From: Oscillospiraceae bacterium
GTDB lineage: Bacteria; Bacillota; Clostridia; Oscillospirales; Ruminococcaceae
Reading direction: 5' to 3'
DNA: 64,000 nt
Assembly (NCBI GenBank): GCA_021203065.1
Contig: JAJQBX010000025.1
Location: 1 to 64,000, forward strand
Shown: positions 3,923 through 21,329 of the stretch, piece after piece
Layout: every line of letters starts with the position of its first letter
Position numbering within the stretch: position 1 is the first letter of the stretch
Program-made: the position numbers and the translations under genes
The notes under the pieces: generated by a model
The model's input: only the letters and a program-made list of their open reading frames with translations
The model's database searches: none
What the model was told of the DNA's origin: nothing

Positions 3923-5029
3923 ATGAGAAGACTTATTTCTGTAGCTGTAATCGTCTCCCTGCTTTTTTGCGCCTGTGGGAGGACGGAGACTGCGACTGAG
4001 GAGAGCGAGGTCACCATCTACACCACCGAAGCGACTGTAGCTACGACTACCGAAGCCACAACTACAACCGAAGCGGCCACCACCGAAGCAACGACTGTGA
4101 CGGAAGCCACCACAACAGTCGCCACCACTGAGGAAGAGCCAGAGCCGGAGGTGATTTCAATCTCATTTCCTGATGAATTCTTCACGAAGCTTCAGGAAAT
4201 CTTCGACAGGTACGGCATCAACCAGAACTGCGACGGCGACGAGGAGAATTGCACCTGCGACATCTATAACGAAACCACCGACGAGGAGGGCAACGTCACC
4301 CGTGAAAAGGTCGCATCCATTTACTATATGGATCTTGAGACCGGATACTCGTTCGAGATCAATTCAGGCGTTCACTATCCTGTTGCAAGCTGTGTGAAGA
4401 TTCCCTTTGTCGTTTATCTCTACGAAAAAATTGCCGCCGGTGAAATCGACGGCGAAACGGTGCTGACATATGAAAAACGCCACTATATGGGCGGAACGGG
4501 AATCATCCAGAACGGAGAGGTCGGGGATCAGTATACCGTCATGGAGCTTTTGGAGCTTTCTATAATCCGAAGCGACAATATCGCTTTCGAGATGCTCAAG
4601 GACTTGGTCGACTGGGACGAATTTGCCGGTTACTGTGAGGAATACGGCTGCACCCACACAGAGGACACCCGTCTCACTCAGGAGAAGATATGCACAGAAT
4701 CTGCAGGAGCTTATGCGAGAATTTTAGCTCAGTTCCTTGAGAGCGACAACCCTTATGTCGAGACCTTCAAGTCCCACCTCGCAATCACCCGGATCCCGAT
4801 GATCAAGTCGAGCTATACCATCTACCGCAAATACGGCTGGTCACAGTATGCTTTCCACGATATAGCTTACATCGAAGCTGAGCACCCGTATGTCTTGGCG
4901 ATTCTCACGAACCTTGAGGGCGAGGAGAATTCCGACTATTCTTTCTATGAAGAGGTCTCGTATCTGATTGAAGAGTATTCGGTTGCGGCTTGGGCTGAAT
5001 TATCAGAAAATAGCGCAGATAATACTTGA
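3923..5029 (+). CDS. Beta-lactamase-fold serine hydrolase lipoprotein
   Basis: Predicted lipoprotein: the signal peptide ends near FCACG with Cys18. It is followed by a Thr/Glu/Ala-rich linker (about 21-75) and then a serine beta-lactamase/transpeptidase-like domain. Active-site motifs are visible: SCVK (Ser156-Lys159) as SxxK, SDN at 217-219, and a KYG at about 300 in the position of the KTG triad. The segment GGTGIIQNG at 190-198 is typical of the class A-like 'beta-lactamase2' group. Resistance cannot be claimed. Many such gut Firmicutes proteins are cell-wall or unknown-substrate hydrolases. The GGGAGAG ribosome site lies 9 bases before the ATG. A terminator follows at 5055. Confidence 0.8.
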   Translation: MRRLISVAVIVSLLFCACGRTETATEESEVTIYTTEATVATTTEATTTTEAATTEATTVTEATTTVATTEEEPEPEVISISFPDEFFTKLQEIFDRYGINQNCDGDEENCTCDIYNETTDEEGNVTREKVASIYYMDLETGYSFEINSGVHYPVASCVKIPFVVYLYEKIAAGEIDGETVLTYEKRHYMGGTGIIQNGEVGDQYTVMELLELSIIRSDNIAFEMLKDLVDWDEFAGYCEEYGCTHTEDTRLTQEKICTESAGAYARILAQFLESDNPYVETFKSHLAITRIPMIKSSYTIYRKYGWSQYAFHDIAYIEAEHPYVLAILTNLEGEENSDYSFYEEVSYLIEEYSVAAWAELSENSADNT

Positions 5030-10431: not shown

Positions 10432-11294
10432 ATGAAAAACATGAAAATTGACGCTAATGGGACAGAAATCCGAGTTACTGGTGATGTTGTAAACGAAGAT
10501 GCTTATATTTCACTTACTGACATTGCTAAATATAAAAGTCCGGATAACACCTTTATTGTTGTTGCAAATTGGATGCGTAACCACTCTACTATTTCTTTTT
10601 TGGGATTGTGGGAAAAATCCATAATCCGAATTTTAAACCTATCGAATTCGATAGGTTTAAAGCTGAGTCAGGAGATAACGCATTTACACTAACACCGCAG
10701 CAGTGGATAAAAGCAACAGATGCTATTGGTATTATATCTAAATCAGGTCGATATGGTGGAACTTATGCTCATACTGATATTGCGTTTGAATTTGCTTCAT
10801 GGATTTCCCCTGAGTTTAAGCTATATATCGTTAAAGATTATCAGCGGTTAAAAAAGGATGAATCGAACCGATTAGCGATTGGCTGGGATGTCAAAAGAGA
10901 ACTTTCAAAAATCAATTATCGCATTCATACTGATGCTGTAAAGGAATTTTTAATAACCCCAACATTATCTCCACAGGAAATGGCGTACACCTATGCATCA
11001 GAGGCAGACGTTTTGAATATGGCTTTGTTCGGGAAGACCGCAGCGCAGTGGAGAAGCGAACACGGGATAAGCGAGAAGACGCCGAATATCAGAGATTTTG
11101 CTTCAGCAGAAGAATTGATTGTTCTTATCAATTTAGAGGATACGAATGCTGATTTGATAAGGCGGGGCATTCCACAGATTGAGCGATTAAAAATCTTAAG
11201 AGAGAAAGCATATAGACAACTTGAAATTCTTGAAAGGAATCAAGATACGGTTGAATCATTGAAGCAGAATCTTGTTGGATCTATGCCAAACTAA
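10432..11294 (+). pseudogene. KilA-N domain protein, single-base frameshift
   Basis: KilA-N domains are DNA-binding modules of phage and mobile-element origin. The first frame gives YISLTDIAKYKS and ANWMRNHSTISFLGLWEK, then goes wrong at about 10610-10617. The +2 frame resumes the family exactly with IHNPNFKPIEFDRF, TPQQWIKATDAIGIISKSGR and DIAFEFASWISPEFKLYIV. Adding one A to the run at 10612-10616 would read TGG GAA AAA ATC CAT and give one continuous protein of about 288 residues, the usual length. The C-terminus has the common ALFGKTAAQWRSEHG tail. The gene is AT-richer than its neighbours, consistent with acquisition. It may be a real pseudogene or a homopolymer sequencing error. Confidence 0.85.
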
Positions 11295-16880: not shown

Positions 16881-17024
16881 CCGCCCACCTCCTCGTCTGT
16901 TGTTATTATATACTATTTTGGACGGGATGTCAACGGGTATGCGGGGGAAGACTGCTTTTTAAAAATCTAAAACGGGCATTATAAAACAATTTCCGTATAA
17001 CCGAAATTTTTTCTACGTATTTTG

Positions 17025-17053
17025 TTGACAATGACGAATTTACATGTTATAAT
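17025..17053 (+). promoter_or_regulatory. Consensus sigma-A promoter of the peptide cassette
   Basis: TTGACA (17025-17030), exactly 17 bp, TATAAT (17048-17053): a perfect consensus. It is about 225 bp before the small peptide gene, leaving a long leader. Confidence 0.85.
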
Positions 17054-17123
17054 GTAAGCATAACAGATGTGAATGACGATTTTTTACGAATTGTCTAAAA
17101 TCATGCGGGGGGTAGAAGCTATC

Positions 17124-17163
17124 GCCCCGTAACCCCGAATGCAATGTGCTACGGGGCTTTTTT
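17124..17163 (+). terminator. Leader terminator 1
   Basis: GCCCCGTA (17124-17131) pairs perfectly with TACGGGGC (17150-17157), followed by TTTTTT. Confidence 0.8.
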
Positions 17164-17176
17164 ATTTGATATTGTT

Positions 17177-17210
17177 CCCTCTGGCACAGTTGTGCTGGAG
17201 GGGATTTTTT
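17177..17210 (+). terminator. Leader terminator 2
   Basis: CCCTCTGGCAC (17177-17187) pairs with GTGCTGGAGGG (17192-17202), with one mismatch-like position, followed by ATTTTTT. It is the second terminator between promoter and peptide gene. Confidence 0.75.
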
Positions 17211-17277
17211 ATTTAGCGATAACAGAGCGACTATTCCGCTTTGCTATGTTCATCACTAAAGGCGGGAGGTGAAATAC

Positions 17278-17466
17278 ATGAAGGCTGTTTCTATGGAGGA
17301 ATTACGTACTGTTGACGGTGGTAAGATCAGATATAGGACTTTGTGCTATGGACTTTATTTCTATGACACAGTAGGTGGTCTTATTTCAGCAAACTTGCAC
17401 TATTCTTGCTGCTCTCAGTGCCGTGCAAACAAGAAGGTTAAGGGCTATTGGTATACATTTGCTTAA
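17278..17466 (+). CDS. Small double-glycine secreted peptide precursor (bacteriocin-like)
   Basis: A 62-residue peptide of no recognised family. The leader MKAVSMEELRTVDGG has the double-glycine form (hydrophobic/acidic EL..V-GG) cut by C39 peptidases. The predicted 47-residue core starts KIRYRTLCYG. It has four Cys (core positions 8, 29, 30, 33), many aromatics and a basic C-terminal half (RANKKVKG), net about +6. A second GG lies inside the core. The ATG at 17278 is 7 bases after GGGAGGT; the frame from 17269 would start inside the ribosome site. The C39 exporter directly downstream supports secretion. Bacteriocin, signalling peptide or RiPP are all possible. No modification or immunity gene is visible. 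Confidence 0.75.
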   Translation: MKAVSMEELRTVDGGKIRYRTLCYGLYFYDTVGGLISANLHYSCCSQCRANKKVKGYWYTFA

Positions 17467-17493
17467 TTCGCATGAGCATTGTGCAAGGGCAAA

Positions 17494-17590
17494 CGTGGAA
17501 GTACTATGAGAGCATCTCATGAGTCAGTCCACGAGCCGTGAGATTGGTTCGGCAAAACTAGCAGTACAGAATAGTTGTCTGCTTTTGCCG
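17494..17590 (+). promoter_or_regulatory. Structured spacer between precursor and exporter
   Basis: CGTGGA/TCCACG (17494-17499, 17528-17533) encloses ATGAGA-GCA-TCTCAT (17506-17520). A second stem, CGGCAAAA/TTTTGCCG (17550-17557, 17583-17590), is extended by GCAG/CTGC. There is no T-run. Such hairpins can stabilise an abundant upstream peptide mRNA or lower exporter expression. No ORF longer than 16 codons lies here. Confidence 0.5.
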
Positions 17591-17629
17591 GACGAATTGC
17601 AACTGATCAACAATATATGAGGTGTTACA

Positions 17630-19891
17630 ATGAGCCGGATTACTTTTGTAAAACAACATGACCAGAGAGATTGTGGTGCAGCTTGTCTTTCTATGATCTC
17701 GGCATACTACGGGTTAAAGCAACCGTTATCAAAATATCGTGAACTGACTAAGACAGACCGTATGGGAACGAATCTCTATGGTTTGGTTGATGGCGCAAAT
17801 AAAATCGGCTTAGAGGCGCAAGCATCCTCCGGGACACCAGAGGATTTGTTTTCAGGCATATCAAGCGGCGAAATCAATTTTCCTTTCATTGCACACATCG
17901 TATCGGATGGTGCACTTCTTCATTATATAGTTGTATTTGAAATAAAAAACGGTATTTTGGTTGTGGGCGACCCGGCAAAAGGGAAAATGCGGATTGATAT
18001 AGAGACGTTTGTCAATTTGTGGACAGGATATATCGTTACATTCAATAAGACTGATGAATTCAAAAAAGGCAACACCCAAAAAGGCAGTATTCTTAAATTT
18101 TTTGGATTGCTAAATGGGCAATACAAGAAGCTTATAGGTGTTCTTATTCTTTCGGGAATAATATCAGCTGTTGGCATTATGGGAGCGTTTGTGTTTGAAT
18201 TGGTTATTGATGACTTTGCGCTTGCAGAAGGATATTACGAAGAAACTGAAGAGGAAAGTGAGGAAGAAGAGGAAGAAGAGCATGATCATGAGGACGAAGG
18301 CGTTATAATGCAACTACTTGAGGAACTTGAAGAGTCGGTTTCAGTTTCAAGCTTCCATCTGATTTTTATTGCGGTTATTTTGTTGTATTTGTTGCAGGGT
18401 TTCATCCAGATGATGCGAGGATATCTGATAGCGTCTGTTTCCCGAAAAATTGATTTGAAGCTGATTCTATCGTATTATTGTCATATCATTGATTTGCCAA
18501 TATCTTCTGTGTCAGTCAGGCAAACAGGAGAGTATATTTCACGATTTTCAGACACCGGGACAATAAGAACCGCAATTTCCAGTGCTACATTGACTTTGGT
18601 TTTGGACTCTATTATGGTAGTTGCGTTTGGAGTAATTCTATTTATGCAGAGCTGGAAACTGGCAATAGTTTCCCTGCTTATAATCGTATTTTATGCAGCA
18701 ACTGTACTAATCTATCGCAAACCATTATCCAATGCAAATCGTCAGGTCATGGAGCAGGATGCAGTAGTTCAATCATACTTGAAAGAAAGCATTGATGGTG
18801 TAGAGACAGTCAAGGCTTCATGCGCCTCTGAACAGGTTGAGGAAGTTGCAACATCGAAGCTCCGCAAGCTTATTAACCTTATTTTCCGAAACAGTGTCTT
18901 ATCTGTTTCTCAGGAAGCTATAGCTGATACAGTGGAGCTTGTTGGAACAATGGTCATTTTATGGCTTGGCTTTTCGATGGTGTTGACTGATCAGACTACA
19001 ATCGGCGAATTGATTACATTTTACGTGTTGGTAGGCTATTTTACTGATCCGATTAAAAATCTTATTGAGTTACAGCCGACCATTCAGACTGCTTTTATAG
19101 CTGTTGACCGTTTGAATGACATTCTGGACTTGCAAAAGGAAGATGAAGACGAAAATTCTGCGCCTTTGGGAACTGTCGAGAAATGGGAAATCAATAACAT
19201 AGATTTCAGATATGGCAACCGAAAATTAACTCTTAATGATGTCAGTATTTCCATTTCAAAAGGTGAGAAAATAGCGATAATCGGTGAGAGTGGAAGTGGA
19301 AAAACAACGTTGGCAAAATTGCTTCTGCGCTTTTACGATGCCGAAAAGGGTGAAATTCTCGCCGACGGAAAGCAGATTCAGACAATATCGCTCTCTTCAT
19401 TGCGTCAGGCTATCGTTTACATAGACCAGAACACGTTTTTGTTTGCAGATACAGTAAAGAACAATCTGCTTATAGGAAATCAGGCTACCGACGAGGAAAT
19501 TGCCGAAGCCTGTAAAATTGCTCATGCAGATGAGTTTATAGAGAATCTGCCTTTTGGCTATGATACTCCCTTGGATGAGAACGGCTCGAATCTTTCCGGT
19601 GGTCAATGTCAGAGACTTGCAATAGCTCGTGCAATATTGAGAAAACCTCAGCTACTTATTCTGGATGAGGCGACAAGCAATCTTGACACCATCACTGAAA
19701 GTGGAATAAAAGACACCGTCTTCGGACTTAACGAAGATCTCAGCTGTATTATCATAGCGCATCGCCTTTCGACAATCAGGAATTGCGACCGGATTTATGT
19801 GATGGATAATGGTCACATAATCGAAAGCGGGACTCATGATGAGCTTATTACTGCAAATGGTAAATACGCAAGACTGTGGGAAAATCAATAG
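17630..19891 (+). CDS. Peptidase-containing ABC exporter (C39 type)
   Basis: Combined protease and exporter that removes double-glycine leaders and pumps the peptide out. Residues 1-140 are a C39 peptidase with DCGAACLSM (Cys15), His98 (LLHYIVV) and Asp114 (VVGDPAKG) as catalytic triad. Residues about 155-490 are the six-TM domain. The ATPase has Walker A GESGSGKTT, signature NLSGGQCQR, Walker B LLILDEATSNLD and H-loop IIAHRLST. Odd: the loop after TM1 (about 200-236) contains a run of 15 or more Glu/Asp/His residues. It starts 163 bp after the precursor gene and is AT-richer than surrounding genes. 753 residues is normal plus this insert. Confidence 0.93.
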   Translation: MSRITFVKQHDQRDCGAACLSMISAYYGLKQPLSKYRELTKTDRMGTNLYGLVDGANKIGLEAQASSGTPEDLFSGISSGEINFPFIAHIVSDGALLHYIVVFEIKNGILVVGDPAKGKMRIDIETFVNLWTGYIVTFNKTDEFKKGNTQKGSILKFFGLLNGQYKKLIGVLILSGIISAVGIMGAFVFELVIDDFALAEGYYEETEEESEEEEEEEHDHEDEGVIMQLLEELEESVSVSSFHLIFIAVILLYLLQGFIQMMRGYLIASVSRKIDLKLILSYYCHIIDLPISSVSVRQTGEYISRFSDTGTIRTAISSATLTLVLDSIMVVAFGVILFMQSWKLAIVSLLIIVFYAATVLIYRKPLSNANRQVMEQDAVVQSYLKESIDGVETVKASCASEQVEEVATSKLRKLINLIFRNSVLSVSQEAIADTVELVGTMVILWLGFSMVLTDQTTIGELITFYVLVGYFTDPIKNLIELQPTIQTAFIAVDRLNDILDLQKEDEDENSAPLGTVEKWEINNIDFRYGNRKLTLNDVSISISKGEKIAIIGESGSGKTTLAKLLLRFYDAEKGEILADGKQIQTISLSSLRQAIVYIDQNTFLFADTVKNNLLIGNQATDEEIAEACKIAHADEFIENLPFGYDTPLDENGSNLSGGQCQRLAIARAILRKPQLLILDEATSNLDTITESGIKDTVFGLNEDLSCIIIAHRLSTIRNCDRIYVMDNGHIIESGTHDELITANGKYARLWENQ

Positions 19892-19905
19892 ATAAATAGC
19901 ATATA

Positions 19906-19936
19906 AAAACCGTCCACAGAGTATACGGACGGTTTT
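19906..19936. terminator. Bidirectional terminator
   Basis: AAAACCGTCC pairs perfectly with GGACGGTTTT; it closes the peptide cassette and the convergent lipoprotein gene. Confidence 0.85.
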
Positions 19937-19955
19937 ATTATGTCGTAAAGAGGAT

Positions 19956-21329
19956 TTACCTACTCGACACCACTTCCACCTGCGCATTCGGATTCACCTT
20001 AGTCCCGTTAATCTCCACCAGCACATACCAATACGCCATATCAGCGGTGGAGACTTCGGGGTAGTCGTCATTGATATAGATGGTATAGTTCCGGTCTTCG
20101 TCCCTTGTGACGTCAGTCACATACGGGTTGATACTGCCGCTGGGCTCTTCTAAAACGAGAAGAATCAGGTCGTTACTCTTGAACCACTCATCAGTATACT
20201 TCGCCGTTAAGAGCTCCCAAGTGGTGTCGACGTTATCTGCAATGGTAAGACCCATCTCGTCATGGACGCTTTCAAGCTCGTTTTGGGAACGGATGACGAC
20301 ACTTACCGGGAAAGAAGCAATTCCGCCGTCGCTTTCGGCGGGGACGGTGTAGTAGTCAAACTCCACTGTGCCGGTCGTATACCACGGCTTCTCGCCATCA
20401 TAGTCATAATCTGCGCCTGCGAACTGGTAGCCATAGACACCTGAAATTGCGTCGAGGAGCTCGCCCGAGCTTGAGCCGTAGCTGACAATCACGTTGTCAA
20501 GCAGGAAGAAGTGCGTAGGACTTGCGTAGTCGATTCCGATGGTGTAGTCCTCGCCTGAGTAGAAGCTGGCACTCGCCGAGTACCTCGAAGCCTCGTCCAG
20601 TGCTTCATACTCGTCCGGGTATTCATAAAGATAGATAACCTCGTCGTTCGAGACAACCAGCATGCATGCGCTGACAGTCTCCTTGAGATAGTCCCGACCG
20701 GTGTCTGAGCAGTATTTATAGCTGACGCTATAGCCTGCGTCCCAGAGGGCATAGATAAGCTCGTTTGCATAGACGGGTCTGTAGTAGTCGCTCCCTGCGC
20801 CGGCAAACTCAGTGCCGAGGATTGCGTTCAGGTCCTGCAAAAGCTCTCCCGTTTCGGAGCAATAGAAGATGATATTAGAGCCGTTCAGCCAGAAGTGAAC
20901 AGGGTAGACGTATTCATATTCGGTGACGCTTCCGTCGCTTCCGTAAAAAGTAGTTCCTCCGGCGTCGAACTGAGAAGCGACAGCAGCTGCGGCTTCCTCG
21001 GAATCGTATTCATAGATGTCGATATATTGGTCATTTTCGAGGATATACCCCGTCCCGCCATTTGATTCGTAGTTATTGGTGTCGAAATCTCTTTCGGTGT
21101 AGGAGTATACCCCCTCAAACACCGCAACGATGTCCACTTTCCCGACAGTAACACTGCCGGGCACGGCTCCATCCTCCGTTGCGGAAGCAGTGACCGAAGC
21201 GTCTTCACTCACAAGAGTGCTTTCAGTAGTAGCCTCGGTAGTCACCTCCGGCTCGTTCTCCTGCGAACCGCAAGCGGTGAGGGATAAAAGCATGGATAAA
21301 GCCAAAGCTATTGATAAAATTCTTTTCAT
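19956..21329 (-). CDS. Lipoprotein with internal duplication, unknown function
   Basis: Not recognised. The signal peptide ends LTAC with Cys20, followed by a Thr/Glu/Ser linker to about 55. Two related units of about 130 residues follow. Each has a helix rich in Asp/Glu/Ala (YDSEEAAAAVASQFDAGGT; PDEYEALDEASRYSASASF), a 'PxHFWL/FFLL-N-I' strand and a 'SGELLxxLxxxxGxxFAGA' end. The C-terminal 140 residues (FPVSVVIRSQNELESVHDEM...) resemble the protease-complex-like domains seen on Clostridial lipoproteins, but this is a guess. GAAAGGAG lies 9 bases before the ATG. Location outside the membrane is the only safe statement. Confidence 0.75.
   Translation of the reverse strand: MKRILSIALALSMLLSLTACGSQENEPEVTTEATTESTLVSEDASVTASATEDGAVPGSVTVGKVDIVAVFEGVYSYTERDFDTNNYESNGGTGYILENDQYIDIYEYDSEEAAAAVASQFDAGGTTFYGSDGSVTEYEYVYPVHFWLNGSNIIFYCSETGELLQDLNAILGTEFAGAGSDYYRPVYANELIYALWDAGYSVSYKYCSDTGRDYLKETVSACMLVVSNDEVIYLYEYPDEYEALDEASRYSASASFYSGEDYTIGIDYASPTHFFLLDNVIVSYGSSSGELLDAISGVYGYQFAGADYDYDGEKPWYTTGTVEFDYYTVPAESDGGIASFPVSVVIRSQNELESVHDEMGLTIADNVDTTWELLTAKYTDEWFKSNDLILLVLEEPSGSINPYVTDVTRDEDRNYTIYINDDYPEVSTADMAYWYVLVEINGTKVNPNAQVEVVSSR

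Follow-up and report, generated by a model that had tools for sequence, protein, structure and literature searches.

The export cassette and its gene content

We analysed a stretch of 64,000 nucleotides (nt) from an Oscillospiraceae bacterium (hereafter the window: assembly GCA_021203065.1, contig JAJQBX010000025.1, positions 1 to 64,000), in which a short cassette encodes a precursor peptide with a double-glycine (GG) leader and an ATP-binding cassette (ABC) exporter with a C39 peptidase domain (Table 1). On its left lie the gene for transfer-messenger RNA (tmRNA) and a gene that we take, from its position and sequence, to be smpB; on its right lies a lipoprotein-like gene without a Pfam match. 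Eight intact exporters, the one in the window included, adjoin ten GG precursors whose cores carry a CxxC motif, and these exporters fall into one group of the exporter tree.

Table 1. Features of the cassette and its immediate surroundings (window positions; ORF, open reading frame).
Feature	Position	Strand	Basis
Variable cargo, smpB to lipoprotein gene	16895..19955		Absent in four congeners
Sigma-A type promoter, TTGACA-17-TATAAT	17025..17053	+	12/12 consensus
Structured 5' RNA with two terminator-like hairpins	17058..17214	+	Folding against shuffles; identity to congener G002
First hairpin	17104..17131	+	-15.7 kcal/mol; function putative
Terminator-like hairpin 1 (GCCCCGTA/TACGGGGC, then T6)	17124..17163	+	Sequence; -14.9 kcal/mol for 17120-17158
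Terminator-like hairpin 2, 14 pairs, T-rich tail	17174..17211	+	Terminator scan, folding
Shine-Dalgarno sequence GGGAGGTG, 6 nt 5' of ATG	17264..17271	+	Sequence
62-residue GG precursor (leader 17278-17322, core 17323-17463)	17278..17466	+	ORF, alignments, profile
C39-peptidase ABC exporter, 753 residues	17630..19891	+	Domain and family models, tree
Acidic/His stretch, exporter residues about 204-224, between transmembrane helices 1 and 2	18239..18301	+	Alignment with 13 other exporters
Terminator hairpin between cassette and convergent lipoprotein gene	19904..19938		Folding

The first-pass annotation, made from the sequence alone, had described a perfect sigma-A promoter, a long leader RNA, a 62-residue GG peptide with a cationic core, a C39-peptidase ABC exporter and a strong terminator, and all of these were recovered, although two terminator-like hairpins inside the leader RNA had gone unnoticed. 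The exporter matches PF03412 (115.8 bits), PF00664 (ABC_membrane) and PF00005 (ABC_tran) and exceeds the cut-off of TIGR01193 (598.6 bits against 523.85); it thus has the architecture of a peptidase-containing ABC transporter (PCAT), a C39 peptidase fused to ABC membrane and ATPase domains, and it is the sole PF03412 match in its 2.36-Mb, 36-contig genome. The terminator region 19898-19945 folds at -18.3 kcal/mol, and the hairpin itself was not among the calls of a simple terminator scan. The region had also been described as AT-richer than its flanks, which holds for the nearest 1.5 kb on either side (GC 37-43% over 17000-19999 against 47-53%); GC is equally low at 10500 and 25000 of the profiled stretch.

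The insert (16895-19955, to which this examination was confined) contains the precursor, the exporter and short or nested ORFs only, with no modification enzyme of the kind that marks clusters of lanthipeptides or other post-translationally modified peptides; neither an immunity or regulator gene nor an HlyD or thiol-oxidase gene is evident in it, and it holds no metal uptake, receptor or two-component genes. No further ORF of at least 30 residues with a Shine-Dalgarno-like sequence was found in 16895-17640 and 19880-19955.

An exporter group associated with CxxC precursors

The leader of the window precursor is MKAVSMEELRTVDGG, and its core of 47 residues has a net charge of +6 and cysteines at positions 8, 29, 30 and 33, the CxxC motif being CSQC at core positions 30-33. 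The published PCAT leader consensus is L(-12)xxxE(-8)L(-7)xxxxGG (main text of PMC6959990); the window leader has V-12 (not L), E-8, L-7, V-4 and the GG.

Of 1720 genome searches in total, made in overlapping draws, 1589 used exporter or C39 queries to collect relatives; named genomes were scanned once in addition. The CxxC loci are those of the window, L140 (genome G296, the same locus as L103), L135 (G656), L020 (goat-rumen Clostridia), L136 (G436, two precursors), L203 (G179, two precursors), L204 (G994, the same as L148) and L212 (G1128). In an unrooted tree of 54 exporters, in which L212 and L020 have long branches, the eight exporters group together with a split copy (support 85/96, not starred; recovered in 86% of bootstrap trees), and within this group the exporters of the window, L140, L135 and L020 form a 100/100 subclade; no shuffle of the group labels came out as low (0/500 for each label, 0/200 for the labels jointly). 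The split copy, in G265 (L205:938-3740), is an exporter of the group divided into two ORFs and adjoins a GG peptide without cysteine.

Candidate precursors were chosen by an automatic leader rule, and the counts contain some spurious ORFs. CxxC is present in nine of ten strict candidates beside the eight exporters and in none of 20 elsewhere (Fisher p 7e-7, a descriptive value, as for the other p-values, because one data set served both to find the motif and to test it, and because the clade was defined by its CxxC exporters). The tenth strict candidate is a spurious downstream ORF, and the L135 precursor, GG-like as it is, fails the rule and was not counted. Over all candidates, the motif occurs in 9/12 of the clade and in 0/31 beside other C39 exporters.

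All ten CxxC precursors have at least four cysteine plus histidine residues. The spacing C-x2-C-x13/15-H-x3/5-H was found in four cores (two of L136, L203 and L204) and in none of the 31 non-clade cores, and arises in 155-567 of 200,000 shuffles per core; the cores of the window and of L020 have C...H-x3-C-x2-C in common, which is likewise absent from the 31 (33 and 11 of 20,000 shuffles, respectively). In both cases, the spacing ranges were picked after the cores had been seen. The precursors of L140 and L135 and the second precursor of L203 combine CPxCG with a C-terminal histidine.

In a leave-one-out profile search, eight precursors scored 24-50 bits, raised by shared leaders and by the two pairs of precursors from the same locus, whereas that of L020 scored 12.6 and that of the window 8.0. 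The membership of the window peptide is based on the placement of its exporter, on its leader (10/16 identical to that of L140) and on its similarity to the L020 precursor (BLASTP E 1e-4). We assign its core to a newly recognised precursor family, which goes with a single clade of exporters and is characterised by CxxC plus additional cysteines and histidines.

The ten CxxC precursors and the L205 peptide all stay under the cut-offs of Pfam and NCBIfam, and no match to PHROGs had an E below 0.01; several of the matches under the cut-off are to zinc families (e.g., Zn_ribbon_16 and YnfU for L203). The first-pass annotation had called the peptide undescribed and without known family, which stands with regard to curated families at their cut-offs but needs amending, as relatives do exist beside the eight intact exporters; the antimicrobial or signalling role that it suggested is a putative one. 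It had also named homologues lacking the leader or a nearby C39 exporter as an observation that would speak against its reading, and this was not borne out: a search of nine genomes with the precursor profile gave matches outside the exporter loci only at E values of 0.02 or more.

Among 60 relatives, the best match to the window peptide, its own locus aside, had an E of 0.009 and was judged to be due to chance. Plasmids gave one chance match (E 0.3), and phages and viral contigs none. The exporter was not found in viral contigs, and in plasmids and phages only relatives of less than 60% identity were found (the best among the matches listed being 42% and 35.5%). One plasmid, labelled Pseudomonas fluorescens (L145, NZ_CP100661.1; the species label may be wrong), encodes an exporter 40.5% identical to that of the window together with Blp-type bacteriocins. 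Exporters of L163, L164 and L165 have downstream GG peptides made of repeated VKYG/LYGI-like units. In L135, a terminator-like hairpin followed by a T run (4401-4432) lies between precursor and exporter and, to judge from its position, could favour expression of the peptide over that of the exporter.

The window core might also belong to an ordinary class II (IId-like) bacteriocin, its four cysteines forming two disulfides and the CxxC being incidental. The GG leader, the cationic core and the TIGR01193 exporter would all fit, as would the GG cassette with a partial PedC/BrcD match that G002 has at the same site (see below). We nevertheless regard it as unlikely: the precursors of L140 and L203a have two cysteines only, both within CxxC, the insert lacks an evident immunity or thiol-oxidase gene, and no immunity family of Pfam was found among nine proteins encoded next to the loci of six relatives (small ORFs excluded; four of the nine have no Pfam match at all).

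The acidic/His loop of the exporter

In the window exporter, 20 of the 41 residues of the loop are acidic, and it probably faces outside. An acidic/His loop was found in five of the eight clade exporters; as a mark of every CxxC exporter it was dropped, 3/8 lacking it. Together with the potential Cys/His ligands in the cores and the fact that no immunity gene is evident, the loop could mean that the secreted peptide handles metal (in the manner of a zincophore) or serves signalling instead of killing. This we consider quite unlikely, given that three clade members do without the loop and that genes for metal uptake, receptors or two-component systems are missing from the insert.

A variable-cargo site between smpB and the lipoprotein gene

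A DNA search with the presumed smpB gave matches in 28 of the 31 genomes of the genus (counting that of the window), and the context of the site was read in ten of the 27 other loci, the 17 more diverged loci being left out. In four of them (L220-L223), the lipoprotein ORF starts 79-123 nt past the equivalent of window position 16895, both flanks align by BLAST and about 3 kb are absent. Other loci carry other cargo: proteins that we take, from their motifs, to be cytosine methyltransferases (L215, L216, L219), a 210-residue protein and, farther on, one with what we presume to be a DPPW motif (L214), a 462-residue protein without a Pfam match (L218) and, in G002, a different GG cassette. The latter (L209:1716-4976) encodes a 227-residue protein (partial match to PedC_BrcD, 34.6 bits against a cut-off of 120), GG peptides of 39 and 41 residues and a distant C39 exporter, which forms a long branch outside the CxxC clade.

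Because its contents vary (empty, methyltransferase-like, GG cassettes), the gap between smpB and the lipoprotein gene is a site of variable cargo in the genus, and gain or loss of the cassette involved the whole unit. The transfer proposed in the first-pass annotation thus finds support in the empty site of four congeners. The integrase genes on both sides of L203 and the terminase and portal genes near L020 are consistent with mobility.

The relatives are patchily spread, with exporters above the threshold used in 1/70 genomes of the family of G994 and in 1/9 of that of G436, and this, like the split exporter copy in G265, might mean that the cassette is decaying cargo that no longer functions. 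For the window this is very unlikely: its exporter gene is a single uninterrupted frame that covers the C39, membrane and ATPase domains, and precursor, Shine-Dalgarno sequence and promoter are intact.

The promoter and the 5' RNA

The segment 17058-17285 folds more stably than its shuffles (z -3.68, 1/200 as low). The GCCCCGTA arm is common to the first hairpin and to terminator 1, so that the two should be mutually exclusive. In a search of the 31 genomes of the genus, the 5' RNA matched G002 over 195 nt (86%, E 8e-59; mean column identity of 94% for 17072-17214), where it precedes the PedC_BrcD-like protein, the two other GG peptides and the out-of-clade exporter; among the matches listed for the other 29 genomes there were short ones only, the best being a 38-nt match to the promoter (E 2e-6). 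Rfam models found the tmRNA alone at gathering thresholds (sub-threshold matches to the 5' RNA, E 0.13 and 3.8, were taken as chance), and the exact pattern of the RNA core was absent from viral contigs. The 5' RNA was considered as a part of the peptide family and dropped, the long match being confined to the window genome and G002 among the 31.

From its sequence, the 5' RNA might be an attenuator for the cassette at the smpB site or a small RNA. It is nearly an even question whether 17058-17163 is an independent small RNA and the peptide genes are expressed from another place or through read-through alone: together with its spacer, the promoter (17018-17055) resembles tRNA-Thr gene promoters of congeners (L246, L251, L254, L256), two terminator-like hairpins lie 5' of the ATG, and the RNA is conserved in G002 ahead of different genes, but a promoter scan gave no other plus-strand site between 17102 and the ATG. 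In L243, L244 and L253, a similar promoter precedes a sequence common to the three (about GTGAGAGGT..GGTTGCTCTTTCC); neither a tRNA nor an Rfam match lies near it. An ORF of nine codons without an evident Shine-Dalgarno sequence (17103-17132) overlaps the first hairpin.

Proposed mechanism

We hold it probable, with moderate confidence, that the cassette is a transferred two-gene GG unit exporting a cationic CxxC peptide, which would probably take up its fold extracellularly, around a metal (or through disulfides), and would most likely serve competition. By analogy with PCAT1 and its substrate CtA (main text of PMC6959990), the precursor leader would dock on the C39 domain of the exporter and be cleaved after Gly-Gly, and the flexible 47-residue core, cationic, aromatic and cysteine-bearing, would be pumped across the membrane. 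The core would most probably fold around zinc, or through disulfides, and act in competition between bacteria. The added acidic/His loop of the exporter may help release or metal loading, and the 5' RNA with its two terminators probably gates output, putatively by attenuation.

PCATs act alone or with one accessory protein (PMC7018657), so that the missing HlyD is not odd. It is odd, however, that no immunity gene is evident, which leaves room for immunity based on the exporter, for a target absent from the producer, for signalling or for a role in metal handling.

Several observations weigh against this interpretation, besides the circularity of the motif test. The GG peptide of L205 has no cysteine, its exporter lying inside the same tree group, and its inclusion changes the association to 9/11 (p 3e-6). 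At least four cysteine plus histidine residues also occur in 5/31 non-clade cores. The window precursor is the weakest match of its family (its 8.0 bits correspond to E 2e-4 for one sequence), and CxxC appears in 23% of the shuffles of its core. The best NCBIfam match of L212 is TIGR04149, a model of radical-SAM-modified ribosomally synthesised and post-translationally modified peptides (18.6 bits, cut-off 25). L136, L204 and L212 lack the acidic/His loop, no terminator-like site was found 5' of the precursors of L140, L135 and L020, and the AlphaFold2 models were poor (predicted local distance difference test 46.5 for the window core and 47.8 for the exporter).

As a wider but tentative proposal, which we place somewhat below even, the family might represent secreted zinc-finger-like GG peptides, miniature proteins folded by a metal, that leave the cell unfolded through a PCAT clade of their own, with the loop, where present, as a platform for folding or zinc loading, and that act as metal-dependent weapons or zinc scavengers. 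If the hosts are anaerobic (as expected for L020 from goat rumen), reduced thiols would favour metal over disulfides. Exporters of GG peptides are well known; a precursor family with conserved cores resembling metal sites was absent from the libraries and the literature searched. Zinc binding outside the cell, if true, would amount to a novel means of stabilising bacterial peptides that carry no modification and would give a testable explanation of the extra exporter loop. The presence of one conserved RNA before two different cassettes at one site offers a regulatory handle.

Comparison with known systems

The double-glycine leader and the TIGR01193 exporter are common to the window cassette and to class II GG bacteriocins, pediocin-like ones among them, and Lactococcin (PF04369) and Bacteriocin_IIc (PF10439) gave weak matches confined to the leader of the window peptide (E 0.059 and 0.085). 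Its core, in contrast, matches none of them: by eye, it has no YGNGV motif of class IIa, as the first-pass annotation had noted for the motif, and no GxxxG; with one precursor only, the class IIb layout with its GxxxG pair is absent, and the insert has no evident immunity gene or HlyD.

Four clade precursors are similar to classical C2H2 fingers and zinc ribbons, but with a spacer of 13-15 instead of 12 residues, and the finger pattern C-x2-4-C-x12-H-x3-5-H is matched neither by the window core, which has C...H-x3-C-x2-C instead and reaches no family cut-off, nor by ten other cores. We found no paper on zinc-finger-like GG peptides in the literature searched, although the unnamed candidates of IIBacFinder may include such peptides; the word 'zinc' is absent from the main texts of PMC6959990, PMC12648078 and PMC13289728, and the single mention of a 'zinc ribbon' in PMC9200625 is unrelated.

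The G002 cassette shares with that of the window the promoter, the 5' RNA, the site and the combination of GG peptides with a C39 exporter, and differs in its exporter outside the clade, its other peptides and the additional protein that partly matches PedC/BrcD.

A search of the PDB with the precursor profile (A3) gave 23 non-significant matches (best E 0.2, the leader of carnobacteriocin B2), several of them zinc proteins, which were not used as evidence of a fold; the CtA chain is not named among them. CtA has a leader of 24 residues and a cargo of 66, from which the leader and core of the window precursor differ, and the same leader consensus as that precursor (main text of PMC6959990). 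PCAT1 (PDB 4RY2 and others), which has the C39-ABC architecture in common with the window exporter, is by sequence its closest solved relative (641 bits).

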